From positions 1-64,000 of the forward strand of contig NZ_SNYO01000001.1 in assembly GCF_004363095.1 (NCBI RefSeq): a stretch of 64,000 bases of DNA. The letters are read 5' to 3'. Source of the DNA: Actinomycetospora succinea. GTDB taxonomy: Bacteria; Actinomycetota; Actinomycetes; Mycobacteriales; Pseudonocardiaceae. The notes under the pieces were generated by a model. It had not been told where the DNA came from. It saw only the letters and a program-made list of their open reading frames with translations, and ran no database searches. The translations under genes were made by a program, and so were the position numbers. Below, one piece after another: positions 20,228 to 48,525 of the stretch (position 1 is the stretch's first letter; each line of letters opens with the position of its first letter).

Positions 20228-21670
20228 ATGAGCGACCTCGAGGTCGACGTCGTGGTGATCGGCGCCGGGCCGGTCGGCGAGAACGTCGCCGACCGGGCGC
20301 ACCAGCAGGGCCTGTCCGCGGCGATCGTCGAGTCACGGCTCGTCGGCGGCGAGTGCTCGTACTACGCGTGCATCCCGTCGAAGGCGCTGCTCCGCCCCGT
20401 CGACCTGTACGCGGCGACGCAGCGCATGCCCGGCGTGGCCCAGGCCGTGTCCGGAACGGTGGACGCCGCGAAGGTGCTCGCACGGCGCGACGAGTTCGCC
20501 GGCGAGGACGACTCGAGCCAGGCCGACTGGCTCTCCGGCGCCGGCATCACGCTGCTGCGCGGGCACGGGCGGATCACCAGCGAGCGCGCGGTCGAGGTGA
20601 CCCACCACGACGGCACCACGACCTCGGTCGCCGCCCGGTCCGTCGTCGTCGCGACGGGCTCGGTGCCGGTGTACCCACCGGTCGACGGCCTGGACGGCGT
20701 CAACGCCTGGACGAACCAGGAGGCGACCCAGGCCAAGGAGGTCCCCGACTCCCTGGTGATCCTCGGCGGCGGCGTCGTGGGCGTGGAGATGGCGACGGCG
20801 TTCCGCGGGCTCGGCGCGCGCGTGACGCTCGTCCAGCACTCCGACCGGCTCGTCCCGACCACCGAGCCCGAGGCCGGCCGGCGCCTGCACGCCTCGCTCA
20901 CTGCGTCCGGCGTCGACGTGCGCCTGTCCACCTCGATGACCGCGGTGCGCCGCGAGGGCGGCCCGGGAGACGCAGCGGAGCGGAGCTCGACCCGAGGAGG
21001 GGTCGTGGCGACCCTCGACGACGGCACCGAGGTCCGGGCCGCCGAGCTGCTGGTCGCCGCCGGGCGGAAGCCGGCGACGTCGGACATCGGCCTCGACACC
21101 GTCGGGCTCGAGCCCGGCACGCACCTCGCGGCCGACGACACGACGACGGTGCAGGGCGACTGGCTCTACGCCGTCGGCGATGCGAGCACCGGCGCCCAGC
21201 TGACGCACATGGGCAAGTACCAGGCGCGCATCTGCGGCGACGTGGTCGTCGCGCGGTCGAAGGGCGCCGAGCTCGGTGGCCGCTACTCGCACCACGCCAC
21301 GACCGCCGAGCACACCGCCGTCCCGCAGGTGATCTTCACCGATCCGCAGATCGGCGCCGTCGGGCACACCGATGCCGCGGCGCGCGACGCCGGCCTGACC
21401 GTCCGCGCCGTGTCCTACGAGATCGGCAGCGTCGCGGGCGGCTCGCTGCAGGCCGACGGGTACGACGGCTTCGCCTCGATCGTCGTCGACACCGACCGGA
21501 ACGTCATCGTCGGCGCGACCTTCGTCGGCCAGGACGTCGCGGAGATGGTCCACGCGGCGACGATCGCCGTGGTCGGCGAGGTCCCGCTGGAACGGCTCTG
21601 GCACGCCGTGCCGTCGTTCCCGACGATGAGCGAGGTCTGGCTGCGCCTGCTCGAGACCTACGGGCTCTGA
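20228..21670 (+). CDS. FAD-dependent pyridine nucleotide-disulfide oxidoreductase (class I)
   Basis: 480 residues. VVVIGAGPVGEN (8-19) binds FAD. The redox pair is Cys43 and Cys48 in GGECSYYACIPSK, against the usual CLNVGC. A second dinucleotide site VILGGGVVGVEMA and the FAD motif YAVGDAS follow, then a dimerisation domain ending HAVPSFPTMSE, where the usual HAHPT base motif is altered. This resembles dihydrolipoamide or mycothione/mercuric reductase relatives; the electron acceptor is unknown. Residues 246-255 come from the 28-bp repeat and lie within the NAD domain. The gene ends 13 bp inside the convergent iron-sulfur subunit gene. Confidence 0.88.
   Translation: MSDLEVDVVVIGAGPVGENVADRAHQQGLSAAIVESRLVGGECSYYACIPSKALLRPVDLYAATQRMPGVAQAVSGTVDAAKVLARRDEFAGEDDSSQADWLSGAGITLLRGHGRITSERAVEVTHHDGTTTSVAARSVVVATGSVPVYPPVDGLDGVNAWTNQEATQAKEVPDSLVILGGGVVGVEMATAFRGLGARVTLVQHSDRLVPTTEPEAGRRLHASLTASGVDVRLSTSMTAVRREGGPGDAAERSSTRGGVVATLDDGTEVRAAELLVAAGRKPATSDIGLDTVGLEPGTHLAADDTTTVQGDWLYAVGDASTGAQLTHMGKYQARICGDVVVARSKGAELGGRYSHHATTAEHTAVPQVIFTDPQIGAVGHTDAAARDAGLTVRAVSYEIGSVAGGSLQADGYDGFASIVVDTDRNVIVGATFVGQDVAEMVHAATIAVVGEVPLERLWHAVPSFPTMSEVWLRLLETYGL
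20965..20992 (+). repeat. 28-bp dispersed intragenic repeat, copy C
   Basis: Opposite DNA strand to copies A and B but the same sense relative to its gene. It begins GGGAGACG and ends GAGCTCGACC, with two core differences. It is in frame, encoding GDAAERSST, and is bounded by Gly and Arg residues, consistent with an inserted surface loop. Confidence 0.8.
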
Positions 21671-22167
21671 TCCTCCCGCTCCCGCCGCGCCGCCTCCCCG
21701 GCCGCCGCGACGAGGTTGACGTAGCCGGTGCAGCGGCAGAGGTTGCCGCGCAGCGCCTCGCGGATGTCGTCCTCGCCGGGGTCCGGGTCGCGGTCGAGCA
21801 GGTCGCGCACGGCGAACAGGTGCCCGGGCAGGCAGAAGCCGCACTGGAAGGCGTCGAGGTCCCAGAACGCCTGTTGGACGTGGTCGAGGGTGCCGCGCGG
21901 CGAGTAGCCCTCGATCGTCGTGACGTCGGCGCCCTCGGCGGACGCCGCGAGCACCAGGCACGACTTGGTGATCTGCCCGTCCATGCGCACCGTGCAGGCG
22001 CCGCAGTCGCCGTTGGCACAGCCGATGTGCGTGCCGGTCATGCCGAGGTTGTCGCGCAGCACGTCGACGAGCAGCTGGCGGTCCTCGATGCGGACGCGCT
22101 TCCGGCGGCCGTTGACGGTGAGCGCGAGGTCGCGCTCGGGGGCGGCGTCGGGCTCGACGGCGGTCAT
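21658..22167 (-). CDS. Molybdenum hydroxylase small subunit, (2Fe-2S) (CoxS/XdhC-like)
   Basis: 169 residues with both expected clusters. The plant-type 2Fe-2S ligands are in CANGDCGACTVRM plus a later Cys in KSCLVL. The second cluster ligands are CGFCLPGH and CRCTGY. The subunit passes electrons from the molybdopterin centre to FAD in xanthine dehydrogenase-family hydroxylases. It is the last gene of the unit: its ATG overlaps the stop of the FAD subunit gene (ATGA), implying fixed stoichiometry. Its final 13 bases overlap the convergent flavoprotein gene. Confidence 0.95.
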   Translation of the reverse strand: MTAVEPDAAPERDLALTVNGRRKRVRIEDRQLLVDVLRDNLGMTGTHIGCANGDCGACTVRMDGQITKSCLVLAASAEGADVTTIEGYSPRGTLDHVQQAFWDLDAFQCGFCLPGHLFAVRDLLDRDPDPGEDDIREALRGNLCRCTGYVNLVAAAGEAARREREDQSP

Positions 22168-22979
22168 GCGTGTGCTCCTTCCCGGAGTTCGGTGAGGGCG
22201 CGCCGGGCGACGACCGGGGCGATGCGGGCGCGGTAGTCGCCGGGGGCGAGGACATCGGTCCAGGGCGCGGTGACGGCGGCGGCGACCGCGTCGTCGACGG
22301 CGGATCGGGTGGGGTCGGGGATGACGATCCGCAGCGGCCGGGCCTGCACGGCGCCGAGGGTCACCGTCAGCGCATCGCCGTCCTCGATCGCGCTCGCGGT
22401 CGCGATCGGCCACGACCCGGTGGCGTGCTTGACCTTGCAGTACCCGCTGCGCGCGACGCCGTCGACGGTCACGGCGGCGACGAACTCGCCGGGACGGCGG
22501 TCGATCGACTGCGCACCGAGGAGGAACTCGTCGACGGGGCACTCGCGGGGTCCGTCGGGGCCGTGCAGCTCGACGGTGGCGCCGAGCGCGGACAGCGCGC
22601 CCGGCATGTCGGTGCCCGGGAACGCATGGCACAGCGCCCCGACCAGCGTGGCGTGACCGGTGAGCTGGCGCCCGCCGGTCACCCCGCGCGCGACCCGGGG
22701 GAGCAGCGGCACGGCCTCGGCGAGCAGCGCCGAGGCGAGCGCGTCGTCATAGGTGACCATCGCGCCGAGGCGCACGCGACCGCCGGTGCGCTCGATGGCA
22801 CGCAGACCCAGGCCGCGCAGGTCGACGACGTGGTCGAGGTCGACCTCGCCGCGGTGCATGCGCGGCAGCAGCTGGCTCCCGCCGGCGAGAACGGCGACCC
22901 GGCCGTGGTGCTCGGCGAGCAGTGCGGCGGCGTCGTCCGGGGTGTCCGGGCGGTGGTAGCGCAGATGGGTGCGGATCAC
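22164..22979 (-). CDS. Molybdenum hydroxylase FAD-binding subunit (CoxM-like)
   Basis: 271 residues. LAGGSQLLPRMHRG (about 31-44) matches the FAD pyrophosphate loop of the family. GHATLVGALCHAFPGTDMP corresponds to the second FAD loop (usually TVGGNLA), and is diverged from the norm. The C-terminus has the CO-dehydrogenase flavoprotein domain. GTG start overlapping the large-subunit stop (GTGA), and its own stop overlaps the small-subunit ATG, so the three subunits are translationally coupled. Confidence 0.92.
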   Translation of the reverse strand: MIRTHLRYHRPDTPDDAAALLAEHHGRVAVLAGGSQLLPRMHRGEVDLDHVVDLRGLGLRAIERTGGRVRLGAMVTYDDALASALLAEAVPLLPRVARGVTGGRQLTGHATLVGALCHAFPGTDMPGALSALGATVELHGPDGPRECPVDEFLLGAQSIDRRPGEFVAAVTVDGVARSGYCKVKHATGSWPIATASAIEDGDALTVTLGAVQARPLRIVIPDPTRSAVDDAVAAAVTAPWTDVLAPGDYRARIAPVVARRALTELREGAHA

Positions 22980-25423
22980 GGGGCACCTCCGGAGACGATC
23001 GCGTCGAGCACGACGGGCGGGGTCAGCGGCACCCGGTGGGCGTGCACGCCGAGCGGGCGCAGGCCGTCGTTGACGGCGTTGAGCAGGGCGGCCATCGCGC
23101 CGCCGACGCCGCTCTCACCGGCGCCCTTGGTGCCGAGCAGGGTGAACGGCGAGGGCGTGTGCTGGTGCTCGAGCCGGAACGACGGCAGGTCGGGTGCGCG
23201 CGGCGTGAGGTAGTGCTTGAAGGTCTCGGCCGCGGGCGCGCCGTCCTCGTCGTAGGGGACCTCCTCCCACAGCGCGCCGCCGATGCCCTGCGCGATCGCC
23301 CCGTAGAGCTGGCCGGCGACGAACCCCGGGCTGATCACCACGCCGCAGTCGTCGATCGCCGAGTACTCGAGGACCTCGACGACCCCGGTCTCGGCGTCGA
23401 CCTCGACCAGGGCGACGTGCGCCGAGTACGGGAAGCTCGGATAGGCCGAGAACCGCCCCTGGTCGTCGGGGACGTGGTGGAAGTTGTGCGGCAGGTCGAT
23501 GCGGGTGACCTCGAGCAGCGGCTGGTCGAGCCCGGGCGCCGCGAGCCCGCGCCGGTAGATCGTCTCGGCGAGCTCGGCGAACGTCAGGGACGTCTCCGGG
23601 GCGGTGCGCGAGACGACGGCGCCGTCGCGGAACTCGAAGTCGGCGGCGTCGGCGTCGAGCAGCGCGGACGCGGCGTCGGCCATCCGTTCCCGCAGCTCAC
23701 GGGCCGCGAGCACCGCCGCGGCGCCGCCGGTGGCGAGGCTGCGGCTGGTGAAGTTGCCGAAGCCGTAGGGGCACGAGTCGGTGTCGCCCTGGGTGACGCC
23801 GACGGCCTCGACCGCGATCCCGAACTCGCGGGCGACGAGGTGGGCGATCGAGGTCTCGTTGCCGGTGCCCGGGCTGGTCACGCCGGTCAGCACCGACACG
23901 GCACCGCTGGGGTGCACGCGCACGGTGGAGGTGTCGAAGCCGCGCACGAAGCTGCCGGCGAAGTCGCCGCCCTCGGGCGTGAGCTCGAAGCCGATCCCGA
24001 CGCCGAGGTGGCGGCCCTGCGCCAGCGCGGCCGCCTGGCGCTCGCGCAGGGCGTCGTAGCCGGCGAGCGCCAGCGCCTTGTCCAGCGCCGCCGCGTACTC
24101 GCCGGAGTCGAGGTGCTTGGCGGCGGTCCAGAACGGAAAGGCCTCGGGCGGGATGAAGTTGCGCCTGCGCACCTCGGCGGGGTCGATCCCGCGGTGTTCG
24201 GCGACGAGGTCCATGATCCGTTCGAGGGCCATCGCGGCCTGTTCCTTGCCGTAGCCGCGGAACCCGTTCCAGGGCGCCTTGTTGGTCACGACCGGCACGG
24301 ACTCGATCGCGTAGTCGGCGATCCGGTACGGCCCGGGGAACGTCATCCCGGCCGGGAACGTCATGCTCCACCCGCCCCAGGGGGCCAGGCAGCCGATGTT
24401 GCCGACGATCCTGTCGGACAGCCCGAGCACGACGCCGTCGTCGTCGAAACCGACCTCGAAGCGGTGGGTGAACTCGCGCGCACCGACGAGCAGGCAGTCC
24501 TTGCGGGTCTCGATCCACTTCACCGGCGCGTCGGCGAGCCTCGAGAGCAGGCAGACCAGCGGCTCCTCGCCGTAGCCGTTGAACTTGTGCCCGAAGCCCC
24601 CGCCCATGCGGGTCGCGACCACGCGGACGCGGTCCTCGGGGACCCCGAGGGTCGTCGCGAGGTTGGTCCGCAGCGGGTGTGGGTTCTGGGTCGACGCCCA
24701 CAGCGTGAGCCGTCCGCCCGGCTCCCATTCCGCGACGTAGCCGCGGGTCTCCATCGGCGCGACGTGCTGGCGCCCGACCCGCAACTCGTCGCGGATGACG
24801 TGCGGCGCGGCGGCGATCTTCGCGGCCGCGTCGCCCTCGGCGAACGGGAAGAGCCCGAGGCGGTTGTCGCCCCACTCCTCGAAGAGCACGGGGGCGTCCT
24901 CGCGCAGGGCCTCGTCGGCGTCGAGCACGGCCGGCAGCGGCTCGTAGTCGACGACGATGTCGTCCAGCGCGGCCTCGGCCGCGGCGAGGCTGGTGGCGAC
25001 GACGGCGGCGACCGGCTCGCCGACCCAGCGCACCCGGTCGGTGGCCAGGCAGCGGAACTCGGTAGTCCTGCACCCCACGATCGAGGGCTCGAAGAAGTGC
25101 GGCAGCGGTGTCGCGAGGTCGACGGCGTCGGCGCCGGTCAGCACGACCTCGACGTCCGCCCGTTCCCGGGCCCGGGTGGCGTCCACCCCGCGGATGAGCG
25201 CGTGCGGGTGCGGGCTGCGCAGGATCGCGGCGTGCATCAGCCCGCGGGGCGCGATGTCGTCGACGAACCGGGCCCGGCCCGTGAGCAGCAGGTCCCCGTC
25301 GCGGCGCAGCGGCTGGTGACCGTCGGTCTCGTGCAGGTCCGGGGCGCCCGGAGGCGGGTCGGGGACCGTGTCCGGCTCGGCCGCCGTGCGCAGGGAGTGC
25401 GGCGGCGTGGGGGTGGTGGTCAT
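22976..25423 (-). CDS. Molybdenum hydroxylase large (molybdopterin-binding) subunit, substrate unknown
   Basis: 815 residues. GGGFGHKFNGYGEEP and PWNGFRGYGKEQ form parts of the molybdopterin site, and the catalytic Glu lies in GTKGAGESGVGG near the C-terminus. The form I CO dehydrogenase loop AYRCSFR is absent (NGFRGYG at that place), so this is not an aerobic CO dehydrogenase. It should hydroxylate an aldehyde or aromatic/N-heterocyclic carbon using water. ATG follows GGGGAG. It opens the second transcription unit of the island, directly behind the TetR-type palindrome at 25447-25466. Confidence 0.93.
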   Translation of the reverse strand: MTTTPTPPHSLRTAAEPDTVPDPPPGAPDLHETDGHQPLRRDGDLLLTGRARFVDDIAPRGLMHAAILRSPHPHALIRGVDATRARERADVEVVLTGADAVDLATPLPHFFEPSIVGCRTTEFRCLATDRVRWVGEPVAAVVATSLAAAEAALDDIVVDYEPLPAVLDADEALREDAPVLFEEWGDNRLGLFPFAEGDAAAKIAAAPHVIRDELRVGRQHVAPMETRGYVAEWEPGGRLTLWASTQNPHPLRTNLATTLGVPEDRVRVVATRMGGGFGHKFNGYGEEPLVCLLSRLADAPVKWIETRKDCLLVGAREFTHRFEVGFDDDGVVLGLSDRIVGNIGCLAPWGGWSMTFPAGMTFPGPYRIADYAIESVPVVTNKAPWNGFRGYGKEQAAMALERIMDLVAEHRGIDPAEVRRRNFIPPEAFPFWTAAKHLDSGEYAAALDKALALAGYDALRERQAAALAQGRHLGVGIGFELTPEGGDFAGSFVRGFDTSTVRVHPSGAVSVLTGVTSPGTGNETSIAHLVAREFGIAVEAVGVTQGDTDSCPYGFGNFTSRSLATGGAAAVLAARELRERMADAASALLDADAADFEFRDGAVVSRTAPETSLTFAELAETIYRRGLAAPGLDQPLLEVTRIDLPHNFHHVPDDQGRFSAYPSFPYSAHVALVEVDAETGVVEVLEYSAIDDCGVVISPGFVAGQLYGAIAQGIGGALWEEVPYDEDGAPAAETFKHYLTPRAPDLPSFRLEHQHTPSPFTLLGTKGAGESGVGGAMAALLNAVNDGLRPLGVHAHRVPLTPPVVLDAIVSGGAP

Positions 25424-25446
25424 CGCGAGCTCCCCGGGCGTCGTTG

Positions 25447-25466
25447 CCTACCGTCCAGGCGGTAGG
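25447..25466. promoter_or_regulatory. TetR-type operator, site 1 of a shared pair
   Basis: CCTACCG-TCCAGG-CGGTAGG, 7-bp perfect arms, 24 bp upstream of the molybdenum hydroxylase large-subunit ATG. Reading the reverse strand of 30446-30465 gives the same sequence with two changes, upstream of the other half of the island. The TetR gene inside the island is the obvious candidate regulator. Confidence 0.7.
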
Positions 25467-25506
25467 GAGTCAGAGTGTGGTGTGGGTCATGTGCTGTCAA
25501 GAGCGC

Positions 25507-26259
25507 TCACCAGGACTTCTCGAGGAACGCCGTGCGGCGCGCGACGTGCTCGTGCTGCTGGGCGGCGACGCCCTGGCCGAGGGCCTCGCGGTCGAGGACG
25601 GCGTCCAGGGGAAGGTCCGCGGCCGCGCGGAGCAGTCGCTTGGTGAGGGCGAGCGACGTCGTGGGTCCGGCGGCCAGCGCGGCGGCCTCGCTCGCGGCCG
25701 TCGCGGCGAGCTCGGCGTCGTCGACGACCCGCGTCGCCAGACCGAGCGCGAGGGCCTCCTCGGCGTCGACGCGGCGGCCGGTGCGGGCGAGATCGAACGC
25801 GCGGGCGTGGCCGACCTGGCGGGCGAGGGCCCACGCCACCCCGCTGTCCGGGACGAGCGCCATGCGCCCGAACGCGCAAGACATGCTCGCCCCGCGTCCG
25901 ACGAGCACGACGTCGCACGCGAGCGCGAGGCCCATGCCCGCGCCGACCGCGGCACCGTTGACCGCCGCGACGACCGGGGTGTCCATGCCCGCGAGCAGGC
26001 GCACCAGCGGGTTGTAGGTGCGGTCGACGGTGTCGTGGGCGTCGTCGAGCTCGTCGACGGCGGCCAGGTCCTGGCCGACGCAGAACGCCCGCCCGGAGCC
26101 CGTGAGCACGATCGCCCCGACGTCGCGGTCGCGTGCCAGGGCGGCGAGGTGGTCGGCCAGCTCGATCCGGGTCGTCTCGTCGAGGGCGTTGAGCCGGTCC
26201 GGGCGGTTGATGGTGACGGTCGCGACGGCGTCGTCGCGGGACACGTCGATCGAACCCAT
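25507..26259 (-). CDS. Enoyl-CoA hydratase/isomerase (crotonase) family protein
   Basis: 250 residues, typical crotonase length. VTINRPDRLNALDE opens the CoA-binding region. The oxyanion-hole segments are GRAFCVGQDLAAV (about 59-71) and NGAAVGAGMGLALACDVVLV (about 105-124). The canonical hydratase glutamates are not both present; Asp and Ser in ALVPDSGVAW resemble the PaaG-type isomerase/ring-opening branch. It would act on a CoA thioester made later in the pathway. ATG follows CTGGAGGTACCC. It lies 56 bp after the TetR gene and 83 bp before the hydroxylase operon, so it closes the first transcription unit. Confidence 0.88.
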   Translation of the reverse strand: MGSIDVSRDDAVATVTINRPDRLNALDETTRIELADHLAALARDRDVGAIVLTGSGRAFCVGQDLAAVDELDDAHDTVDRTYNPLVRLLAGMDTPVVAAVNGAAVGAGMGLALACDVVLVGRGASMSCAFGRMALVPDSGVAWALARQVGHARAFDLARTGRRVDAEEALALGLATRVVDDAELAATAASEAAALAAGPTTSLALTKRLLRAAADLPLDAVLDREALGQGVAAQQHEHVARRTAFLEKSW

Positions 26260-26315
26260 GGGTACCTCCAGCGACGACCGGCGGCCCGGTCGGTGGGTGG
26301 GTGAGGAGAGGAGAC

Positions 26316-26921
26316 TCAGGCCGGCGCGATGCCGGTGAGGATCTGCGACCAGAAGTACTCGGCGACCTCGGCCGCGCCGCGTCGCCCGCCCGGCCGGAAC
26401 CACTGGTAGGTCCAGTTGGCCATCCCGAGCACCGCCATGGCGGTCAGGTCGACGTCGATGTCGCCGAAGCTGCCGTCCCGGGTGCCGTCGGAGAGCACGG
26501 TGACCAGCATGTCCCGGTACTGATCACGTTTCTGGCGGACCGAGGCGCGGACGTCCGGCGGGAGCTCGCGGAAGTGCTCGAAGAAGATCTTCAGGTGGCC
26601 CGGGTGGGTCTCCTGGAGCCTGATCAGGTCCGTCATGATCGCCAGCAGCATCTGCTGGTTGGTGTGCCCGCCGGCGTCGATCCGCTCCTGCTGCTGGGCG
26701 ATGATCAGGTCGATCATCTCCTCGTGCAGCTCGACGAGCAGCTGGTCCTTGCCGGGGAAGTAGTAGTAGAGCGAGGCCTTCTTGATCCCGACCGCACCCG
26801 CGATGTCGTCCATCGAGGTCTCGCGATAGCCCGAGGCGTCGAAGAGCTCGGCGGCGACGCGACGGATCTGCGCGCGGCGCGCGGTGCCGTCCATGCGCTG
26901 GGTCGCGGGGCGCTGGGTCAC
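26316..26921 (-). CDS. TetR-family regulator of the molybdenum-hydroxylase island
   Basis: 201 residues from GTG. The N-terminal helix-turn-helix is clear: AAELFDASGYRETSMDDIAG, then IKKASLYYYFPGKDQLL. The ligand domain has TetR_C features of acyl-CoA responsive regulators, such as HPGHLKIFFEHFRELP. The start overlaps the stop of the SnoaL-like gene (GTGA); a longer reading frame upstream is a shadow of that gene. Being inside the operon headed by the operator at 30446-30465, it is probably autoregulated and also controls the second unit at 25447-25466. Confidence 0.85.
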   Translation of the reverse strand: MTQRPATQRMDGTARRAQIRRVAAELFDASGYRETSMDDIAGAVGIKKASLYYYFPGKDQLLVELHEEMIDLIIAQQQERIDAGGHTNQQMLLAIMTDLIRLQETHPGHLKIFFEHFRELPPDVRASVRQKRDQYRDMLVTVLSDGTRDGSFGDIDVDLTAMAVLGMANWTYQWFRPGGRRGAAEVAEYFWSQILTGIAPA

Positions 26922-27388
26922 GAGAACGATCCCTCCGAGGACGGGGGGCGGTGCAGCGCGCTGTACTCCTGCCCGGGCAGCGAGTAGCCCCGCGCAGCGT
27001 AGGGGAACGCGTCCAGCTCCGTGGTGGCCTCGTGCTGCTGGTAGTACGACCGGATCTCGGAGATCAGTCCGTCGCGCAGCACGAACCACTCCGCCCCCCG
27101 GGTCGCGACGCGCTCCCGGGCGCCGGTCGGGAGCCAGAACATCGTCCACTCGATGACCGCCTCGTCCCCGTCGGCGACCAGCCGGTCGACCACCCAGCGG
27201 GCCTCGATGACCCGGGTGACCTTGCGCCAGTAGCGGGCGAGGTGCTCGGCCCCGGCCACCGGCGTCGAGCCGAGGTTGGGCGCGAGGAAGTAGTGCACGA
27301 CGTCGGGGTGCAGCGTGGTGAGCAGTGCGTCGACGTCACCGTCGGAGCAGCCGTCGTAGTAGCGGGTGATGAGGTCGGTGGGGTCCAT
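26918..27388 (-). CDS. SnoaL-like (NTF2 fold) protein
   Basis: 156 residues, one cone-shaped NTF2-like domain: an N-terminal helix LITRYYDGCSDGDVDALL, then LHPDVVHYFL, and a final strand EIRSYYQQHEAT. The fold serves as epoxide hydrolase, polyketide cyclase, ketosteroid isomerase or dehydratase. Asp and His residues in DVVHYF could be catalytic. In this island it may isomerise or hydrolyse a ring-derived intermediate. Coupled to the TetR gene downstream (GTGA) and 15 bp after the hydroxyacyl-CoA dehydrogenase gene. Confidence 0.75.
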   Translation of the reverse strand: MDPTDLITRYYDGCSDGDVDALLTTLHPDVVHYFLAPNLGSTPVAGAEHLARYWRKVTRVIEARWVVDRLVADGDEAVIEWTMFWLPTGARERVATRGAEWFVLRDGLISEIRSYYQQHEATTELDAFPYAARGYSLPGQEYSALHRPPSSEGSFS

Positions 27389-27403
27389 CGGTGTCCTCGG
27401 TGA

Positions 27404-28525
27404 TCAGTACTCGTGGAACCCGGCGGCGCTCTTGCGGCCCAGCCGGCCCCGGCCGACCAGGTCGACGAGCGGTTCGGCGGGCACGAGACGCGGGTCGGGC
27501 TCGACCTCGGCCATGGACGCCAGGGCGGCCACGGTGACGTCGAGGCCGATGAGGTCGATGAGCGCCAGCGGGCCCATCGGGTGGTTCGCGTCGGCGGTCA
27601 TCAGGGCGTCGACGGCCCGTGGGTCGGCGCCGGCCGCGACCGCGCGTGCGGCGTCGTTCAGGTAGGGGATGAGCAGCCGGTTGACGATGAAGCCCCGGCG
27701 GTCGGCGGCCTCGACCACGACCTTGCCGAGGTCGCGGCCCCAGGCGGACGCGGTGGCGGCCAGCGTCCGGTCCGCCCCTGCGATCTCGAGCAGCTTCATC
27801 GCGGGTGCGGGGTTGAAGAAGTGCAGCGCGAGCGTGGGCCGGCCCGAGGTGACCGGCGCGCACACGTCGGCGACCCGGTAGGACGAGGTGTTGGTCGCCA
27901 GCGGGGTGCCCGCCGGCAGCGCCGCGTCGAGCCGCCCGACGAGGGCCTGCTTGACGGCGAGGTCCTCGGCGACGGCCTCGATCACCACCTCGGCGCGCCC
28001 GAGGTCGGCGTCGTCGACCGTGGTCCGGATGCGGTCGTGGATCGCCGTGGCGTGCGCGGCGTCGAGACGTCCCTTCGCCACCGCCCGGTCGGTGCTCGCC
28101 CGGATCCGGGTCCGGAGGCCGTCGAGCGAGGCTTCCGTGCGCCCGAGGACGGTGACGGGCCGGCCGCTGCGCGAGATCACCTCGACGATGCCCGAGGCCA
28201 TCAGCCCAGTGCCGAGCACGCCGACCTCGCCGGTCCAGCCTGCGACCTCGGGGTCCGGAGTCGCCTCGGGATCCGCGAGCGCCGCGTCACCCGTCAGGAA
28301 CGCCCGGCGCGCGGCGGGCAGGTCGTCGATCACCGCGCAGGGCCCGACCGGGTGCCCGGCGCCGTGGCGCAGGGCGAGGTCGAGCACCCCCGGCGCCACC
28401 CGGTCCCGGCGGCTCATGGCGACGGCGTCGGCGAGCATCCCGGCCCGCAGGCGCAGCGCGGGCTCCCAGTCCTCGGTGCCGGGCAGCGGGGTGTGCCCGG
28501 CGAGGACGTCGGTGGAGGTCGTCAT
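27404..28525 (-). CDS. 3-Hydroxyacyl-CoA dehydrogenase with duplicated C-terminal-type domain at the N-terminus
   Basis: 373 residues. The NAD domain begins at about residue 100 with VGVLGTGLMASGI, and the catalytic region is LHFFNPAPAMKLLEI. The C-terminal 3HCDH domain follows with RRGFIVNRLLIPYLNDA and ANHPMGPLALIDLIGLD. Unusually, residues 25-75 contain LRLRAGMLADAVAMSRRD and GAGHPVGPCAVIDDL, which look like another truncated 3HCDH C-terminal unit placed before the NAD domain. It would oxidise a 3-hydroxyacyl-CoA late in the pathway. It starts 9 bp after the cyclase gene. Confidence 0.88.
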   Translation of the reverse strand: MTTSTDVLAGHTPLPGTEDWEPALRLRAGMLADAVAMSRRDRVAPGVLDLALRHGAGHPVGPCAVIDDLPAARRAFLTGDAALADPEATPDPEVAGWTGEVGVLGTGLMASGIVEVISRSGRPVTVLGRTEASLDGLRTRIRASTDRAVAKGRLDAAHATAIHDRIRTTVDDADLGRAEVVIEAVAEDLAVKQALVGRLDAALPAGTPLATNTSSYRVADVCAPVTSGRPTLALHFFNPAPAMKLLEIAGADRTLAATASAWGRDLGKVVVEAADRRGFIVNRLLIPYLNDAARAVAAGADPRAVDALMTADANHPMGPLALIDLIGLDVTVAALASMAEVEPDPRLVPAEPLVDLVGRGRLGRKSAAGFHEY

Positions 28526-28534
28526 CCCCGGGCC

Positions 28535-29491
28535 CTACTTGATCGCCAGCGCGCTGACCGGCGAGCCGACGGCCCCGGTCAGCGGCAACGGGGAGGCGAC
28601 GAAGAAGAACTCGTACACGCCGTCGCGGGCGCAGTCCTCGCCGAGCGGGTCGAGGTCGAAGATCTCGCCGATCGCCATGCCCATGTAGGTCAGCGCGACG
28701 ATGTGCAGCGGCTGGAACTGGTCGATCTCGTTGGGTCGGACCTCGACGCCCCAGGTGTCGGTGGCGACGGCCGCGACGTCGTGGTCGTACAGCCACGGCG
28801 CGGTGTGCAGCGACAGTCCCGGCGCGTCGCCACCGGCGTAACCGCCCCAGTCGTCCCGGCGCGCGCCGAGGAACCCGGTGCGCACCAGCACGGCGTCGCC
28901 GCGACGGACCTCGACGCCCTGCGCGGCGGCCGTCGCGTCGAGCTCGTCGGCGGTGACCGGACGGCCCGGCTCGAGGGAGTCGACGCCGACGTGGCGGGCG
29001 ACGTCGAGCAGGACCCCGCGCATGACGATGCGGCCGGTGTAGTTCTGGATCGCGTTGCTGGCCGCGCCGTTGCTGTCGACCTCGGCTGCCGACCGGCCGT
29101 TGTACATCCTGCCCTCGTAGAACACGTGCGCCAGCGCATCCCACTGGGTGCCGGCCTGGTTGGGCATGACGACGTAGTCGTCGGCGAACCCGATCCCGTG
29201 CGCCGGCCCCCAGTCCCCGGGCAGCACGTCCTGGCGCCCCGCGACGTGGTCGGCGCCGGTCGCGGACATGAACAGCTGCGGGTTGATGCGGAACGGGCTG
29301 TTCTGCGGACCCCGCAGGTCGTACGGCAGCGACAACGACACCGTGCGGCCCTGGCGCACCAGTGCGGCCGCGGCGGTGATCTCGTCGGGCCCGACGAAGT
29401 TGAGCGTGCCGAGCTGGTCGTCGTCGCCCCAGCGGCCCCAGTTCGAGTACTGCTCGATGTACTTCGCGAGGATCGACCGGTCGCCGTCCAT
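28535..29491 (-). CDS. Cyclase-family (kynurenine formamidase-like) metal hydrolase
   Basis: 318 residues of the PF04199 type. The metal-site motif usually written HxGTHxDxPxH appears as NQAGTQWDALAHVF, with Gln for two His residues. VRTGF, a later LHTAPWLYDHDVAAVATDTWG, and QFQPLHIVALTYMGM fit the family second half. Members hydrolyse amide or lactone bonds (kynurenine formamide, isatin, cyclic amides) with Mn or Zn. A ring-opening hydrolysis after hydroxylation by the molybdenum enzyme is a reasonable role. The ATG follows GAGAGG at good spacing; the GTG two codons upstream is unlikely. Confidence 0.82.
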   Translation of the reverse strand: MDGDRSILAKYIEQYSNWGRWGDDDQLGTLNFVGPDEITAAAALVRQGRTVSLSLPYDLRGPQNSPFRINPQLFMSATGADHVAGRQDVLPGDWGPAHGIGFADDYVVMPNQAGTQWDALAHVFYEGRMYNGRSAAEVDSNGAASNAIQNYTGRIVMRGVLLDVARHVGVDSLEPGRPVTADELDATAAAQGVEVRRGDAVLVRTGFLGARRDDWGGYAGGDAPGLSLHTAPWLYDHDVAAVATDTWGVEVRPNEIDQFQPLHIVALTYMGMAIGEIFDLDPLGEDCARDGVYEFFFVASPLPLTGAVGSPVSALAIK

Positions 29492-29510
29492 GATCACCTC
29501 TCGCCGCTCG

Positions 29511-30422
29511 TCAGGACCGGCGGGCCGGCCGCGGCCCGACGGTGGTGGTCAACGTGCCGATGCCCTCGGCCTCGAGCTCGACGACGTCGCCGGGCTCGAG
29601 CCACGGGAACGCGTCCTCGCCGTGCAGGCTCGAGAGCTCCAAGAGGCAGCCGGTCGCGCACGTGCCCGAGCCGAGGACGTCGCCCGCACGCACCCAGGAG
29701 TTCGTCGAGGCGTGAGCGATCATGTCGGCGAACGAGTGGTGCATCGAGGCCAGTCGGTCGCCGCCGTGGGGCTTGCCGTTGACCCGCGCCGACAGGGTCG
29801 TGTCCGGTCGCCCGGATGTGCCGCCGAGCTCGTCGGGCGTCGCGAGGCAGGGGCCGATGACGTTGGCGAAGTCCTTGCACTTCGACGCCCCGAGGCCCAG
29901 CGACATCTCCGGGCCGGCGATGTCGCGCGCGGAGTAGTCGTTGAAGAGCGTGTAGCCGGCGATCAGGTCGGGCGCCTGCTCGGGCGTGACGTCGCGGCCG
30001 TCGGCGCCGAGCACCGCGGCGACCTCGAGCTCGTAGTCGAGCTGGTCGGTGTCGGGCCGCGGGATCTCGTCCCCGTCGCCGAAGATGTTGTTCGGGTGCG
30101 TGAAGTAGAAGACCGGCGTCCGGAACCACTCGGCCGGCACCTCGTCGGTCCCGCGGCTGCGCTGCAGGAAGTTCCGGTAGTGCTGCTCGAAGGTCAGGAA
30201 GTCCCGGATCGTCGTCGGACGTGCCAGCGGCGTCAGCAGCCGCACCGCGTCGAGGCCGACCGCGTCGCCGATCGCCGCGGGCTCCGTGCGCGACATCGCG
30301 ATCGCCAGCAGCTCCGCGTCACCGTCCCCGGCGGGCCGGGCGACCGGCTCGACCGCCCGCTCGCGCAGGAGCCCGATCGTGACCGGCCCGCCGGTGGCGG
30401 GGGTATAGCGCACGAGCCGCAT
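29511..30422 (-). CDS. Fumarylacetoacetate hydrolase (FAH)-family protein, island copy
   Basis: 303 residues. The FAH metal site is present: LDYELEVAAVLG supplies the Glu-x-Glu pair, FNDYSARDI the Asp segment, and KCKDFANVIGPCL the Lys-Asp part. SGTCATGCLLEL and LEPGDVVELEAEGIGTL follow in order. Such enzymes hydrolyse acylpyruvates or decarboxylate and isomerise 2-hydroxymuconate-type diacids. First gene of the island, 24 bp behind the palindrome at 30446-30465. A second FAH-family gene of clearly related sequence is at 45.4-46.4 kb in another operon. Confidence 0.9.
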   Translation of the reverse strand: MRLVRYTPATGGPVTIGLLRERAVEPVARPAGDGDAELLAIAMSRTEPAAIGDAVGLDAVRLLTPLARPTTIRDFLTFEQHYRNFLQRSRGTDEVPAEWFRTPVFYFTHPNNIFGDGDEIPRPDTDQLDYELEVAAVLGADGRDVTPEQAPDLIAGYTLFNDYSARDIAGPEMSLGLGASKCKDFANVIGPCLATPDELGGTSGRPDTTLSARVNGKPHGGDRLASMHHSFADMIAHASTNSWVRAGDVLGSGTCATGCLLELSSLHGEDAFPWLEPGDVVELEAEGIGTLTTTVGPRPARRS

Positions 30423-30445
30423 CCCGGGTCCTCCTCGACCTCGTA

Positions 30446-30465
30446 CCAACCGTCTGGACGGTAGG
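30446..30465. promoter_or_regulatory. TetR-type operator, site 2 of a shared pair
   Basis: CCAACCGTCTGGACGGTAGG; the reverse strand reads CCTACCGTCCAGACGGTTGG and differs from site 1 at two of 20 positions. It lies 24 bp upstream of the first ATG of the island, the same distance as for site 1. Confidence 0.7.
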
Positions 30466-30493
30466 TTAGAGCGATCGGGCCGGGAGTCAAGAC

Positions 30494-31489
30494 TCAGGTG
30501 TCGAGCAGTTCCGGGACGAACAGTTCCTCGACGCCGCGCAGGCGGTCGGAGAGGCCCTGGTCGTGGAAGTGGCGCAGGAACGCCTCGAGCGTCGCCCGGT
30601 TGCCGGTGACGCCGTAGGGCCACCATTCGGCCGGCATCAGCGCGCGGGCGCGCTCGTAGAGGTCGCCGAACCACGGCACCATGACGTCGATCTGCTGGGT
30701 CTCCCGGCGGAACTCGTAGTGCGCGATCGCGGCGTCGCGCGAGGCCGTGAAGCCGTCGAGCAGGGTGCGGGCGAGGCCGGGGTGCTCGTCGAGGAGCTCC
30801 CGGCGCGCGACGACCGTGTGCATGATCGGGAGGATCCCGGTGCGCGCGTACCAGTCCTGCTCGACCCGGGCGGTGTCGGGAAACAGCGGGGCGACGCGCG
30901 GTGAGCCGTCGAGGACGCAGCGCGGCGGGTGCGCGGAGATCAGCGCGTCGATCTCGCCGGCCTCGAGCATCGGGCCGAGCGGCCCGTCGGCGGCGCTCAC
31001 GTCGACGGCCGACGGGTGCCGGAACGGGACGAAGTCGAAGGGCGGCATCGGCGCGTCCACGCCCCCGACGACCCAGCGGCACCGGTCCGGTGTGACGCCG
31101 TGCTCCTCGGCGAGAATGCCCTTGAGCCACACGCCCGGATCGGTGCCGTAGACCGCGAACTCGCCGACGGTGCGGCCCGCGAGGTCCTGGGGCTTCTCGA
31201 TGCCGCTCGCGGTGCTGACCCAGATCGCCGAGTGCCGGAAGTGGCGAGCGGGGAAGACGGGCAGCGCCACGAACGGCGGGTCGGGCAGGTCGAGGGTGCG
31301 CAGGTAGAACGTCAGGCCGAGCTCGGCGACGTCGAAGGCCTGCTCGCGGACCATGCGGTCGAAGATGTCGGAGACGAGGTCGGCGCTGTGCAGGGTCGCG
31401 TCGACCCCGTCGAAGGTGACGGTGCCGTCGAACAGGGCGCGCATGTGGTCGTAGCGGGCCGAGGCGACGGAGAGGGTGATCGGTGCCAT
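30494..31489 (-). CDS. 4,5-Dihydroxyphthalate decarboxylase-like / periplasmic-binding-fold protein
   Basis: 331 residues. The order of motifs follows the 4,5-dihydroxyphthalate decarboxylase (Pht5) family, which shares a solute-binding fold: DVAELGLTFYLRTL, ALPVFPARHFRHSAIWVST, DLAGRTVGEFAVYGTDPGVW followed by LKGILAEEHGV. No signal peptide is seen with the ATG chosen (GGTGGAG ribosome site), which fits an enzyme rather than a transport receptor. It would decarboxylate a dihydroxy aromatic acid. It diverges from a LysR regulator, which probably controls it, and lies 71 bp from the start of the neighbouring island. Confidence 0.75.
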   Translation of the reverse strand: MAPITLSVASARYDHMRALFDGTVTFDGVDATLHSADLVSDIFDRMVREQAFDVAELGLTFYLRTLDLPDPPFVALPVFPARHFRHSAIWVSTASGIEKPQDLAGRTVGEFAVYGTDPGVWLKGILAEEHGVTPDRCRWVVGGVDAPMPPFDFVPFRHPSAVDVSAADGPLGPMLEAGEIDALISAHPPRCVLDGSPRVAPLFPDTARVEQDWYARTGILPIMHTVVARRELLDEHPGLARTLLDGFTASRDAAIAHYEFRRETQQIDVMVPWFGDLYERARALMPAEWWPYGVTGNRATLEAFLRHFHDQGLSDRLRGVEELFVPELLDT

Positions 31490-31559
31490 GGCTCCACCGT
31501 CGGCCCGCCGGATCGAGAAGTCCAAGACAGGCTTGAGCGGTCATTGATAGCGCTGCACG

Positions 31560-32468
31560 ATGAATGGCGTGGAGCTGCGTCAGCTCGTGTACTTCGACGC
31601 CGTCGTCCGGTACGGCGGGTTCAGCCGGGCCGCCGGGGCGCTGCACGTCGCCCAGCCCGCGATCTCCGCGCAGGTCCGGCGGCTCGAGGACGAGCTGGGC
31701 GTGCGGCTCCTCGCGCGCACGACCCGGCGGGTGGGGCTCACCGAGGCGGGCGAGCTGTTCCTGGTCCGCGCCCGGCGGGTGCTGGGCGAGCTCGACGCCG
31801 CCCGCGACGAGGCCGCCGACCTCGCCGCCGTGCTCCGCGGTCGCGTGGTCCTCGGCGCCTCCCCGGTGCTCGCGGGCCTCGACCTCGCGGCCGTCCTCGC
31901 CGCCTTCGCCGCGCGCCATCCCGGCGTCCACCTGACGCTGCGCGGCGGGATCACTGCGGGGCTGCTCGCCGACCTCGACGCGGGCGCCGTCGACCTCGTC
32001 CTCGGCCCGATCCACGACGAGTACCGCACGCGCGACCGCACCGCGACCCCGCTGCTCGACGACGAGCTGGTCCTGCTCACCCCGCCCGGTCATCGGCGCG
32101 CGCGGTCCCGGTCGATCGCCCTCGCGGACCTGCGCGACGACCCCTTCGTCTGCCTGCCGCCCGACAGCGGCCTGCGCCAGGTGCTCGACGATGCCGCCGA
32201 CGACGCCGGGTTCCGGGCGCACGTGCCGTTCGAGGTGTCGACGCCGGGCGAGGTGCAGGCGCTCGTCGCGGCGGGGCTGGGGGTGGCGCTGCTGGCGGCG
32301 TCGACGGTGACCGGGTCGGCGACGGTGCACCGGGTCCGCCCGGCGCTGCGCCACCCGCCGATCGGGCTGCTGCACCGCGAGCTCTCACCGGCGGCCCGGG
32401 CGCTGGCGGCGGTCCTCACCGACGCCGCGTCCGAGGTATCGGAGCGAAGGGCACCGTCGCCCGGATAG
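31560..32468 (+). CDS. LysR-family transcriptional regulator
   Basis: 302 residues: an N-terminal winged helix ELRQLVYFDAVVRYGGFSRA followed by AAGALHVAQPAISAQVRRLE, and an effector domain with RGRVVLGASPVLAG and an end typical of LysR. Divergent from the dihydroxyphthalate decarboxylase-like gene across 70 bp, the standard arrangement for a LysR activator and its target. The last residues ERRAPSPG are encoded by a partial copy of the GAGCGAAGGGCACC hairpin repeat (32441-32460), so the original C-terminus may have been altered. Confidence 0.9.
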   Translation: MNGVELRQLVYFDAVVRYGGFSRAAGALHVAQPAISAQVRRLEDELGVRLLARTTRRVGLTEAGELFLVRARRVLGELDAARDEAADLAAVLRGRVVLGASPVLAGLDLAAVLAAFAARHPGVHLTLRGGITAGLLADLDAGAVDLVLGPIHDEYRTRDRTATPLLDDELVLLTPPGHRRARSRSIALADLRDDPFVCLPPDSGLRQVLDDAADDAGFRAHVPFEVSTPGEVQALVAAGLGVALLAASTVTGSATVHRVRPALRHPPIGLLHRELSPAARALAAVLTDAASEVSERRAPSPG

Positions 32469-32505
32469 ACGGGCCGCCGTCCGAGCGAAGGGCACCTTCG
32501 CTCGG
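32441..32505. repeat. GAGCGAAGG hairpin repeat: partial copy plus full copy 2
   Basis: 32481-32505 folds into an 11-bp perfect stem CCGAGCGAAGG / CCTTCGCTCGG with loop GCA, downstream of the LysR stop. A half copy GGAGCGAAGGGCACC precedes it at 32441-32455, inside the end of the LysR coding region. The full palindrome matches the one at 15289-15309 in reverse complement. Confidence 0.7.
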
Positions 32506-32770
32506 TGAAGACGGGCCTCGGGCACCCGAGCGCGCACCCGACCGTCACCCGCCCGACATCGCCCGTGCGGGTGTCCGTCCCCACACCGCGGACGTGCGGG
32601 CGGTAGGCAGTGCGCCGAAGTCGGCATACTCGGGGGTCAGATGAGCATTCGTTGTGTCGCCGTCCTGCCCGCGGGCCTGGTGTGGCGGGCCGTCGGGGCC
32701 GGGTGGTGGGTCAGCCGAGGCTGGTACACCTACCGCCCGCGGCTCCTCGCCGTCCTGCCCGACCCCGAGG
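32506..32770. other. Convergent intergenic stretch, no gene seen
   Basis: Between the LysR gene with its hairpins and the convergent DUF35 gene. A plus-strand frame from ATG at 32641 begins MSIRCVAVLPAGLVWRAVGA but runs antisense through the DUF35 gene and becomes low-complexity. I do not accept it as a gene. No other structure was noticed. Confidence 0.5.
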
Positions 32771-45319: not shown

Positions 45320-45380
45320 GATCACGGGCGACGTCAGGCACCGCATCGGCATCGACTGGTGCACCACGTCGCCCGTGATC
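45320..45380. terminator. Bidirectional terminator-like dyad with nested stem
   Basis: GATCACGGGCGACGT (45320-45334) pairs perfectly with ACGTCGCCCGTGATC (45366-45380). Inside the loop, GCACC (45338-45342) pairs with GGTGC (45358-45362). It lies between the convergent dha operon and the FAH gene. As in the hairpin at 37484-37531, the right arm runs into the stop codon of the minus-strand gene. Confidence 0.55.
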
Positions 45381-46352
45381 ACCGGGGAACGGCGCCCGCC
45401 GCCGTCCACGGCCGTGGCCGCCGCGCCGTCCCCACGCGCGCCGTCGGCAGGTCCACCGGCTCCACGCCGGCGACGACGCGGTTCGACACCGACCCGATGC
45501 CCTCGACCACCAGCGTCACGACGTCGCCCGGCACCAGCGGCGGGGGAGCGTCGTCGCCCAGGTGCGCCCAGTACTCGAGCAGGCACCCCGCGCCGCAGGT
45601 CCCGGAGGCGAGGACGTCGCCGGTGCGCAGCTCCGCGCCGCGCGAGGCGTAGGCGACGATCTCCTCGAACGACCACGACATGCTCGCCGAGGTGTCGCCG
45701 CCGCCCGGCAGCGGGACGCCGTTGACCTCCGCGTGCATCTCCAGCGCCAGGCGGCCGTCGCGGCGGTGGGCCGCCAGCTCGTCGGCGGTGACGATCCACG
45801 GGCCGAGGGTGTTGGCGAAGTCCTTGCCCTTCACCGGGCCCAGGCCGACCGGGATCACCGGCGGCATGAGGTCCCGGGCCGACCAGTCGTTGAACAGCGT
45901 GTACCCGGCGATGTGGTCGGCGGCCTGCTCCGGGGTCAGGTCGCGACCAGGCTTGCCGATCACAGCCGCGAGCTCGAGCTCGAAGTCGAGCCGCCGGCAC
46001 CCGGGCGGCACCGCCACCGGCTCGTCCGGCCCGATCACCGCGTTCGTGTTGGAGAAGTAGAAGACGGGCTGCTCGTACCACTCCGGCGGAGGCGCCGTGC
46101 GGCCGAGCAGCTTGAGGCTGCCCTCGAGGTGCTCCTCGAAGGTGATGTAGTCGCGCAGCGTGCCCGGCTGCACCGGCGCGAGCAGGTGCACCGCCGACAG
46201 CGGGCGCGGGTCGCCGTCGGCGGTCCGGGCGACGAGCGCCGGGCGGTCGTCCGCGGCGAGCACCTCGTCGACCCCGACCGAGAGCGGCTGGACCTGGTCA
46301 CCGTCGACGATCCCCACCCGGGTCTCGCCGTCGACCTCGATGCGGGCGATCT

Positions 46353-46356
<4 letters not shown>
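45379..46356 (-). CDS. Fumarylacetoacetate hydrolase (FAH)-family protein, P450-operon copy
   Basis: 325 residues from GTG. The metal-site order is conserved: LDFELELAAVIGKPG, FNDWSARDL, GKDFANTLGPWIV, then SGTCGAGCLLEY. It aligns by eye with the island FAH protein through most of its length but carries an extra C-terminal tail rich in Arg, Pro and Ala (last 25 residues). It hydrolyses C-C bonds of acylpyruvate-like compounds or acts as a decarboxylase/isomerase. The start overlaps the stop of the MBL-fold gene (GTGA), placing it last in a P450-MBL-FAH operon. Confidence 0.9.
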
Positions 46357-47296
<940 letters not shown>

Positions 47297-47297
<1 letters not shown>

Positions 47298-48490
47298 CAC
47301 GCGCCCACCAGTCGCACGGGCAGGGCGTCGAACTTGCGCATGGTCCCGCTGGGGCTGCGGACGGGGTCGCCGGTGCGCTCGAAGCGCGCCACGCGGCGGG
47401 TGAGCTCGGTGAGCATCGACGTGGCCTCCATCCGCGCCAGCGGGGCGCCGAGGCAGAGGTGGATCGAGGTGCCGAGCGCCAGGTGCGTCCGGGCGTTCTC
47501 GCGGGTCACGTCGAGGCGGTCCGGGTCGGGGAACTGACGGGGATCGCGGCCCGTCGACCCGAGCACCGCGCACACGGTGGCGCCGGCCGGGATCGTCACG
47601 CCGCCGATCTCGGCCTCGGCCCGCGTGCGGCGGTAGAAGACGCGGAACGGCGCCTCGAAGCGCAGCAGCTCCTCGACCGCGTTCGGGACGAGGTCCGGGC
47701 GGGCGCGCAGGAGCTCCCACTGCTCGGGCTGCTCGATCAACGCGTCGATCGCGTTGCCCAGCAGGGCGCCGGTGGAGTCGACGCCGGCCAGCCAGATGGA
47801 CGCGAGCGTCATCAGCCGCTCCGGGCCGTCGGCCGCGAGCCCGCCCGTCGTGCCGCCCGACTCCATGATCAGGCGGCCGAGGCAGTGGGCGGGCAGGCCG
47901 GGGATGCCGTCCTGGCCGAGCCAGGTCAGCGCCTCGAGGAGCAGCTCGGTGTGGAGGGGGTCCGCGGCGGGCTCCTGGGCGCGCACGACGGCGTCGCTCC
48001 AGTCGACGAGCTTCGCGCAGCTCGGCGGGACGAGACCCGTCAGCAGCGCCATGGCCCGGTCCGGCATCGGCTGGGCGAGGCTCGGGACGGCGTCGACCTC
48101 GCCGAGCGCGAGCGCCTGCTCGACGATCGCCGTGGCCGCGGACTCGATCCCCGGGCGCAGCTGTTCGATCTCGGCGCGGGCGAACGGCGGCTGGACGGCA
48201 CGGCGGATGCGGGTGTGCTCCGGGGGATCGGTCTCGATCAGCGGGTAGCGCTCGGCCCGGCCGAGGGCGCTCTCGTACGTCGCGCCGTCGCCGGAGACGA
48301 ACTCGCGGTGGTTGCGCAGGACCGCGGCGGCCTCGGCGTAGCCGGGCACGAGCCAGATGTCGCGCTCCGGTTCGTGGAGCGCGGGCCCGCGGCCGCGCAG
48401 TTCGGCGTAGAGCGGGTAGGGGTCGTGCAGGGCCTCGGGGCGGTACAGGTCGAGATCGCCGGGCCGCAGCGACGCAGCTACGTTGGACAT
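47297..48490 (-). CDS. Cytochrome P450 monooxygenase
   Basis: 397 residues, typical of soluble bacterial class I P450s. The I-helix WLAGVDSTGALLGN holds the acid-alcohol pair region. ExxR is in EELLRFEAPFR. The heme loop is LGTSIHLCLGAPLARME with proximal Cys346; the usual Phe of FGxGxHxC is Leu. Partner ferredoxin and reductase are not adjacent. First gene of an operon with MBL and FAH genes, suggesting oxidation, then hydrolysis of a cyclic ester or acid. ATG follows GGGAGAAGT. The promoter region holds two TetR-type boxes. Confidence 0.93.
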
Positions 48491-48511
48491 ACTTCTCCCT
48501 GGTGAGAGGGT

Positions 48512-48525
48512 TGCACTCGGGTGCA
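48512..48525. promoter_or_regulatory. TetR-type box 1 TGCACTCGGGTGCA
   Basis: A near-perfect 14-bp dyad in the P450/TetR divergent region. It is the exact reverse complement of box 2 at 48546-48559. Box centres are 34 bp apart, about three helical turns. Confidence 0.7.

Follow-up and report, generated by a model that had tools for sequence, protein, structure and literature searches.

A rare accessory island in Actinomycetospora succinea joins a molybdenum hydroxylase to hydrolases and coenzyme A-linked enzymes behind two predicted TetR operators

We describe a candidate catabolic island of Actinomycetospora succinea (assembly GCF_004363095.1) within positions 1 to 64,000 of contig NZ_SNYO01000001.1, the whole stretch of DNA that was analysed and that is called the window below. 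Nine genes on the minus strand (21658-30422) encode the three subunits of a molybdenum (Mo) hydroxylase (CoxLMS), a crotonase, a TetR regulator, a SnoaL-like protein, a 3-hydroxyacyl-coenzyme A (CoA) dehydrogenase (HADH), a cyclase-family protein and an FAH-family hydrolase; the initial annotation had named these families, and open reading frames together with Pfam matches above gathering thresholds bore out all of them. With its last 9 bases the coxS gene runs past the left edge of the island into the end of the neighbouring flanking gene, and tetR starts with GTG at 26921, overlapping the stop of the SnoaL gene by 4 bases. The features are as follows, percentages being identities to the homologues in G246, a genome of another genus of the same family.

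21658-22167, minus strand: coxS-like 2Fe-2S subunit (Fer2_2 92.7 bits, Fer2 30 bits; 60.4%)
22164-22979, minus strand: coxM-like FAD subunit (FAD_binding_5 122.8 bits; 47.2%)
22976-25423, minus strand: coxL-like Mo-cofactor subunit (MoCoBD_1, MoCoBD_2, Ald_Xan_dh_C; loop WNGFRGYGKE, KGAGES motif; 67.6%)
25447-25466, no strand: predicted operator before the coxLMS unit (palindrome, genome uniqueness, conservation in G246)
25507-26259, minus strand: crotonase with PaaG-type PDSG segment (ECH_1 177.3 bits; PaaG-type isomerases among PDB neighbours; 53%)
26316-26921, minus strand: TetR regulator with TetR_C_24 ligand domain (TetR_C_24 102.8 bits, TetR_N 56.5 bits; 51.2%)
26918-27388, minus strand: SnoaL-like (NTF2-fold) protein (SnoaL_2 69.6 bits, fold matches; 64.9%)
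27404-28525, minus strand: HADH with extra N-terminal stretch (3HCDH_N 136.2 bits, 3HCDH 108.4 bits; 53.4%)
28535-29491, minus strand: PF04199 cyclase of a QxGTQWDxLxH subfamily (Cyclase 84.2 bits, alignment with 24 homologues; 29.7%)
29511-30422, minus strand: FAH-family hydrolase (FAA_hydrolase 173.8 bits; 42.4%)
30446-30465, no strand: predicted operator before the FAH-cyclase-HADH-SnoaL-TetR-crotonase unit (palindrome, genome uniqueness, conservation in G246)
30494-31489, minus strand, with a longer start possible at 31525: 4,5-dihydroxyphthalate-decarboxylase-like protein (9jp7, E 5.2e-63)
31560-32468, plus strand: LysR-type regulator, divergent from the decarboxylase-like gene (LysR_substrate 126.4 bits, HTH_1 87.4 bits)

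Among the NCBIfam matches listed (25 of 71 for the crotonase) no model reached its cut-off for any of the nine proteins, so that at this level none of them has a named function; the decarboxylase-like protein had no match in Pfam or NCBIfam.

Both units of the nine-gene set begin behind a 20-bp palindrome, CCTACCGTCCAGGCGGTAGG (25447-25466) before coxL and CCAACCGTCTGGACGGTAGG (30446-30465) before the FAH gene. Within each palindrome 16 of the 20 positions are self-complementary; between the two, 18 of 20 are identical after inversion of one and 16 of 20 without it. The initial annotation had placed these near-identical sites correctly, but in both units 23 bp, not 24, separate the palindrome from the first start codon. 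With up to two mismatches, the pattern CCTACCGNNNNNNCGGTAGG matched three times in the window against 0.27 expected, a count that not one shuffle in 100 reached; the remaining match, at 44558, is unrelated. Apart from these two sites, the 6.47-Mb genome has no exact match to CCNACCGNCNNGNCGGTNGG and no match to CCTACCGNCYRGNCGGTAGG with up to one mismatch (reversed control: 0), and a genome-wide repeat was accordingly rejected: rather than being scattered without relation to these genes, the close matches are two in number and both stand at the units. A weight matrix built from six sites, including these two, scored them at 28-29 bits, the next best place in the window reaching 10.4 bits. At one mismatch CCNACCGNCNNGNCGGTNGG occurs at 31 places in the genome, against 11 for the reversed control. 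We rejected an additional regulon member at contig 4:694047, which scores 19.6 bits and lies ∼660 bp from the start of a transporter-like gene with another gene between, and two further one-mismatch places, at 13.4 and 9.7 bits, are both inside genes (three of 29 such places were looked at).

The evidence that carries the regulatory reading comes from another genus. Searches with the TetR and the HADH over 297 genomes of the family led to a single other genome, G246, so that the neighbourhood survey proposed with the initial annotation did recover a homologous, rearranged cluster (locus L076). One strand of that locus encodes HADH, an aldehyde dehydrogenase, SnoaL, crotonase, a canonical PF04199 cyclase, FAH, coxL, coxM and coxS, and the other encodes two 3-oxoacid CoA-transferase subunits, a carboxymuconolactone-decarboxylase-like (CMD) protein, TetR and a sugar-type ABC importer. 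The pattern derived from the window occurs at three places in the whole of G246, and all three are in this cluster, before the importer, the HADH gene and coxL; since these only near-matches all fall in the homologous cluster, the palindromes are very probably the operators of the island's TetR. A fourth site of weaker pattern faces the CoA-transferase/CMD/TetR unit, and because of it control of tetR by its own product appears to be kept in G246. Although gene order is altered, a separate operator before coxLMS and the placement of tetR within an operator-headed unit are retained. Five of the six operators have TTGAC, a -35-like element, in the 45 bp upstream of them, compared with 28 of the 363 gene-upstream stretches taken as background, a post hoc comparison of a feature first noticed by eye. 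Taken as predictions from comparison, the conserved operator beside an orthologous TetR and these elements before most operators support the earlier proposal of two units co-regulated by a TetR encoded inside the set, where its gene (26316-26921) indeed lies within the FAH-to-crotonase unit.

The two clusters, both uncharacterised, thus have in common CoxLMS, SnoaL, HADH, crotonase, FAH, TetR, the operator sequence and its separate copy before coxL. They differ in arrangement, in the canonical and non-orthologous cyclase of G246, and in its extra aldehyde dehydrogenase, CoA-transferase, CMD protein and ABC importer, whereas the decarboxylase-like and LysR genes of the island are missing from the G246 stretches compared.

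Several results weigh against this picture of a dedicated regulon serving one CoA-linked route. Matches to the operator pattern were found in 43 of the 297 family genomes, 41 beyond the window's own and G246, with 14 genomes for the reversed control. Among eight more distant TetR loci, a related palindrome of at least 8 bits within 250 bp was present in four, a count that has no control comparison, at distances such as 222 bp in L068 and 89 bp in L069. Inside the window, a looser half-site pattern, allowed up to three mismatches, showed no enrichment (21 matches against 19.07 expected), and a generic promoter scan returned no promoter in the region. The window and G246 cyclases, at 29.7 percent identity, are not orthologous, and for that reason the hydrolytic step may differ in G246. 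Lastly, the island genes include no CoA ligase, the nearest AMP-binding gene seen being at 57150. Separately, G086 and G125, from one genus, hold 22 and 17 places resembling CCTACCGACCGGTCGGTAGG (reversed control: 0), which represent either a different, larger regulon or a repeat.

Collinearity with the closest relative, G219 (locus L123), indicates that the unit is an accessory island. The G219 sequence follows the window up to 21666 and again from 32530, with ∼9 bases in between, and the genes flanking this gap are 91 and 90 percent identical to those of the window. The missing block, 21667-32529 (10,863 bp), consists of the nine genes, less the last 9 bases of coxS, together with the decarboxylase-like and LysR genes. 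The bounds first assigned (21658-30465) therefore held the nine genes and both palindromes as described but were too narrow, leaving out two genes of the island. Absence was judged against G219 alone of the two genus members with a close carboxylase flank, the other being G258. The G+C content of the island is 73.5 percent, against 73.7 percent in the left flank, and no exact direct repeat of at least 10 bases links its ends in the 160-170-base stretches compared. Near the right edge, 3′ of the LysR gene, a perfect-looking hairpin without a T run, CCGAGCGAAGGGCACCTTCGCTCGG, occupies 32481-32505; the terminator scan did not pick it up.

The block is rare. At E≤1e-200 the window's own genome was the only one of 18 in the genus with CoxL, and because the other 17 lack it the comparison favours gain of the island here over its loss in G219. 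HADH occurs in two of the 297 family genomes, the window's own and G246, and in one of 80 genomes of the latter's genus, G246 itself. At E≤1e-220, CoxL was recovered from three of 394 genomes of the class, two of them with proteins only 48-49 percent identical and the third being the window's own. No plasmid record reached 60% identity in searches with HADH, CoxL, FAH and SnoaL. The gene block is apparently mobile.

All three subunits of the Mo hydroxylase (2Fe-2S, FAD and Mo-cofactor) have Pfam matches above gathering scores, and coxL carries an active-site loop, GFRGYG, and the KGAGES motif of the catalytic glutamate. This glutamate is kept in all seven large subunits compared, several of which sit in other unexplained clusters, and the loop tryptophan with RG[YF]GKE in six of them, L083 having PLSAARGFGKD. 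The best PDB scores of coxL are to CoxL of carbon monoxide (CO) dehydrogenase (8uem, 432 bits) and to quinoline 2-oxidoreductase (426-427 bits). An aerobic CO dehydrogenase was nonetheless rejected: the AYRCSF loop of that enzyme, whose cysteine binds copper, is replaced by GFRGYG, and the NF040766 score of 504 falls below the cut-off of 950. The loops of known enzymes used here, that of CO dehydrogenase included, are those given in PMC8305194. As a separate observation, the 49% identical CoxLMS of L082 (8312-20000) stands beside genes that resemble, by eye, ureidoglycolate lyase, an isocitrate-lyase-type enzyme, LeuC and hydantoinase, neighbours that faintly recall the end of the nicotinate fermentation route.

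The cyclase scores far above the gathering score of PF04199 (84.2 against 23.1 bits), as its first assignment would have it, but departs from the usual metal motif of the family, HxGTHxDxPxH: the G246 protein has HSGTHLDAPYH and the window protein QAGTQWDALAH. In an alignment with 24 homologues, glutamine takes the place of the second histidine in 21, and both histidines are present in L010 only; on this alignment the window cyclase falls in a subfamily that mostly carries glutamine where the motif has histidine. Its sole solved relative found, 5ibz, is an uncharacterised protein. Mo-hydroxylase genes lie near four of the 24 cyclase loci (L007, L008, L009 and, as a partial 26% match, L033) and near none of the 18 loci L034-L051, among which are the closest cyclases (60-66%). 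Two Pseudonocardia records (L007, 8100-13255; L008, 6497-14167) have a cyclase of the same subfamily directly before coxL, preceded by an SDR-like gene and, by eye, a LigB-type dioxygenase-like gene. A paralogous cyclase (54%) of the same genome (L049, contig 1:1007001-1027000; 5461-11425) accompanies two FAH relatives and neighbours resembling, by eye, a glyoxalase-fold dioxygenase, an FAD monooxygenase and an amidohydrolase; L050 has a similar set, and cyclase and FAH pairs also occur in L048 and L051. Elsewhere in the window, a second small cluster (45379-49171) has a divergent TetR gene next to minus-strand genes for a P450 and for two hydrolases, one of the FAH family and one of the MBL fold; its FAH protein shares an FExH segment with that of the island.

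The remaining enzymes point towards CoA chemistry. Enoyl-CoA hydratases have two catalytic glutamates, in place of which the crotonases carry LVPDSG (window) and LVPDTG (G246), a segment of the LVPD(S/T)G type found in PaaG-type isomerases; the crotonase family assignment stands, then, with a PaaG-type rather than a hydratase-type active-site segment. Both the NAD-binding (3HCDH_N) and C-terminal (3HCDH) domains of HADH exceed gathering scores and the core is regular, for which reason CoA thioesters are to be expected; the 3-oxoacid CoA-transferase of G246 fits. To the eye, residues 1-95 of HADH resemble a duplicate of the 3HCDH C-terminal domain set ahead of the NAD domain, which Pfam does not call; G246 retains part of this stretch, and the predicted structure of the protein has a mean pLDDT of 36.7. 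For SnoaL, a model built on two sequences and poor over residues 119-156 (one of five models confident) suggests a broad match to the NTF2/ketosteroid-isomerase fold, with no specific reaction.

We regard as reasonably probable, on balance, an accessory catabolic island in which a KstR2-like TetR governs two promoters and CoxLMS ring hydroxylation is followed by hydrolysis and CoA-dependent breakdown. Gene content, an operator common to two genera and its place before the units, and presence or absence among relatives come from sequence comparison, and within the model it is the regulatory layout and the accessory nature alone that comparative evidence addresses. Without substrate, the TetR would repress both promoters through the 20-bp operator at or beside each, one serving coxLMS and the other FAH-cyclase-HADH-SnoaL-TetR-crotonase; autoregulation would follow from the position of tetR inside the second operator-headed unit. 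Release of the repressor would then fall to an intermediate of the pathway, most likely a CoA thioester. The inducer of KstR2 is a CoA thioester, and since the island TetR has a TetR_C_24 ligand domain and counts KstR2 (4w1u, 4w97) among its neighbours in the PDB, an inducer of this class is plausible. CoxLMS would hydroxylate a ring, probably beside a ring heteroatom, the cyclase and FAH hydrolase would open or cut the product, and the PaaG-type crotonase, acting as an isomerase, and HADH would process the CoA-bound fragment. The class of inducer, the substrate, the order of the reactions and the parts played by the SnoaL and decarboxylase-like proteins are given here as we infer them, and the sequence put forward in the initial annotation, from ring hydroxylation through hydrolytic opening and acylpyruvate-type cleavage to beta-oxidation, is likewise a proposal. 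That all this amounts to an undescribed aerobic CoA-linked ring-degradation route, with an uncharacterised Mo-hydroxylase clade (PW[NQ]xxRG[YF]GKE loop) and a cyclase with a rebuilt metal site moving between genera with a dedicated TetR regulon, seems to us nearly, though not quite, an even call.

The decarboxylase-like gene and its LysR may be separate cargo that shares the island and stands outside the TetR pathway, an alternative to which we give a substantial chance, if a smaller one than its opposite. The pair lies outside the operator-headed units with its own divergent regulator and is absent from the G246 stretches compared; against this, G219 lacks the pair and the nine genes alike, and its flanks are clean. 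On Polaromonas and Sphingobium plasmids (L128, 1672-7990; L130, 6441-8993), a homologue of the decarboxylase-like gene occurs within a few kb of an extra nadC, which might, speculatively, protect from phthalate as a quinolinate analogue.

Were the decarboxylase-like gene part of the pathway, the substrate could be a pyridine carboxylate or dicarboxylate, hydroxylated by CoxLMS beside the ring nitrogen and relieved of a carboxylate by the decarboxylase-like protein before ring opening. Solved Mo hydroxylases of the superfamily include quinoline, 6-hydroxypseudooxynicotine and nicotinate enzymes, a pyridine dicarboxylate would resemble phthalate, and such a substrate would suit hydroxylase and 4,5-dihydroxyphthalate-decarboxylase-like gene alike. 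No test result singles it out, however, the G246 stretches lack the decarboxylase-like gene, and the island families include no ring-cleaving dioxygenase or monooxygenase, so that we consider this substrate unlikely.

A furoate-like route, whose core is a Mo dehydrogenase and a crotonase, would have CoxLMS hydroxylate the CoA ester of a five-membered heteroaromatic acid and the crotonase open its lactone form. Although CoxLMS and crotonase match that core and G246 adds an aldehyde dehydrogenase and a CoA-transferase alongside, the island genes include no CoA synthetase or other member of the AMP-binding family, and we know of no use in the furoate route for FAH, cyclase, SnoaL or HADH, four proteins that would be superfluous; the route is quite improbable here. 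Still less probable is an aldehyde or sugar oxidase in sugar-acid breakdown, with FAH and cyclase acting on sugar lactones and keto acids. In its favour, all three subunits have their best NCBIfam scores to glyceraldehyde dehydrogenase models, the G246 importer is of the ribose/arabinose type and a diketo-deoxyrhamnonate hydrolase is among the FAH relatives; but those scores stay far under the curated cut-offs (coxL 534 against 790 bits), and neither HADH nor a PaaG-type crotonase nor a 3-oxoacid CoA-transferase would fit such a route.

To return to the proposed TetR-governed ring-degradation island, the regulon would give a direct handle on an uncharacterised pathway: any compound found to release the repressor would reveal the class of substrate. 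A function would also be gained for a Mo-hydroxylase group that recurs in several unexplained catabolic clusters, and for the common cyclase subfamily too. As one of many catabolic islands of soil actinobacteria without an assigned substrate, it is moderately surprising.

The initial annotation knew of no named pathway with this exact gene set, and none appeared among the matches listed in open-licence literature or in the annotated neighbourhoods viewed; an undescribed pathway is plausible and not refuted. For the nicotinate and isoquinoline pathways the comparison was of gene families. The uncharacterised cluster of Pseudonocardia plasmid pBCI1-2 (L080) likewise groups CoxLMS, FAH, crotonase and TetR, but its coxL is 45% identical, an MBL-fold hydrolase stands in for the cyclase, an acyl-CoA ligase and dehydrogenase are present, and there is no matching operator. 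The furoate (hmf) pathway has its CoA synthetase beside the Mo enzyme, in contrast to an island without the AMP-binding family. The lumichrome (riboflavin) cluster of Nocardioides simplex also brings a Mo hydroxylase and an FAH-family protein into one actinobacterial catabolic cluster; it differs in its single-polypeptide oxidase LumJ, Rieske and catechol dioxygenases and P450, the term cyclase being absent from the text of PMC12746152, and this pathway was rejected for the island, whose families include no Rieske or catechol dioxygenase and no single-chain oxidase. An FAH member also belongs to the 4-hydroxypyridine kpi cluster, which however employs a flavin monooxygenase; the stem "molybd" is absent from the text of PMC7356986. 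Of the solved Mo enzymes, CO dehydrogenase gives the best single PDB score for coxL and is distinguished by its cysteine loop, while quinoline 2-oxidoreductase (1t3q, ∼426 bits) and 6-hydroxypseudooxynicotine dehydrogenase (7dqx, 356 bits), matching over nearly the whole of coxL, share the three-subunit architecture and the GES catalytic motif but have the loops AYRGVG and AYRAPG, according to PMC8305194, where the window has GFRGYG. The KstR2-type repressors, finally, share the TetR_C_24 ligand-domain family with the island TetR and act on other target genes.

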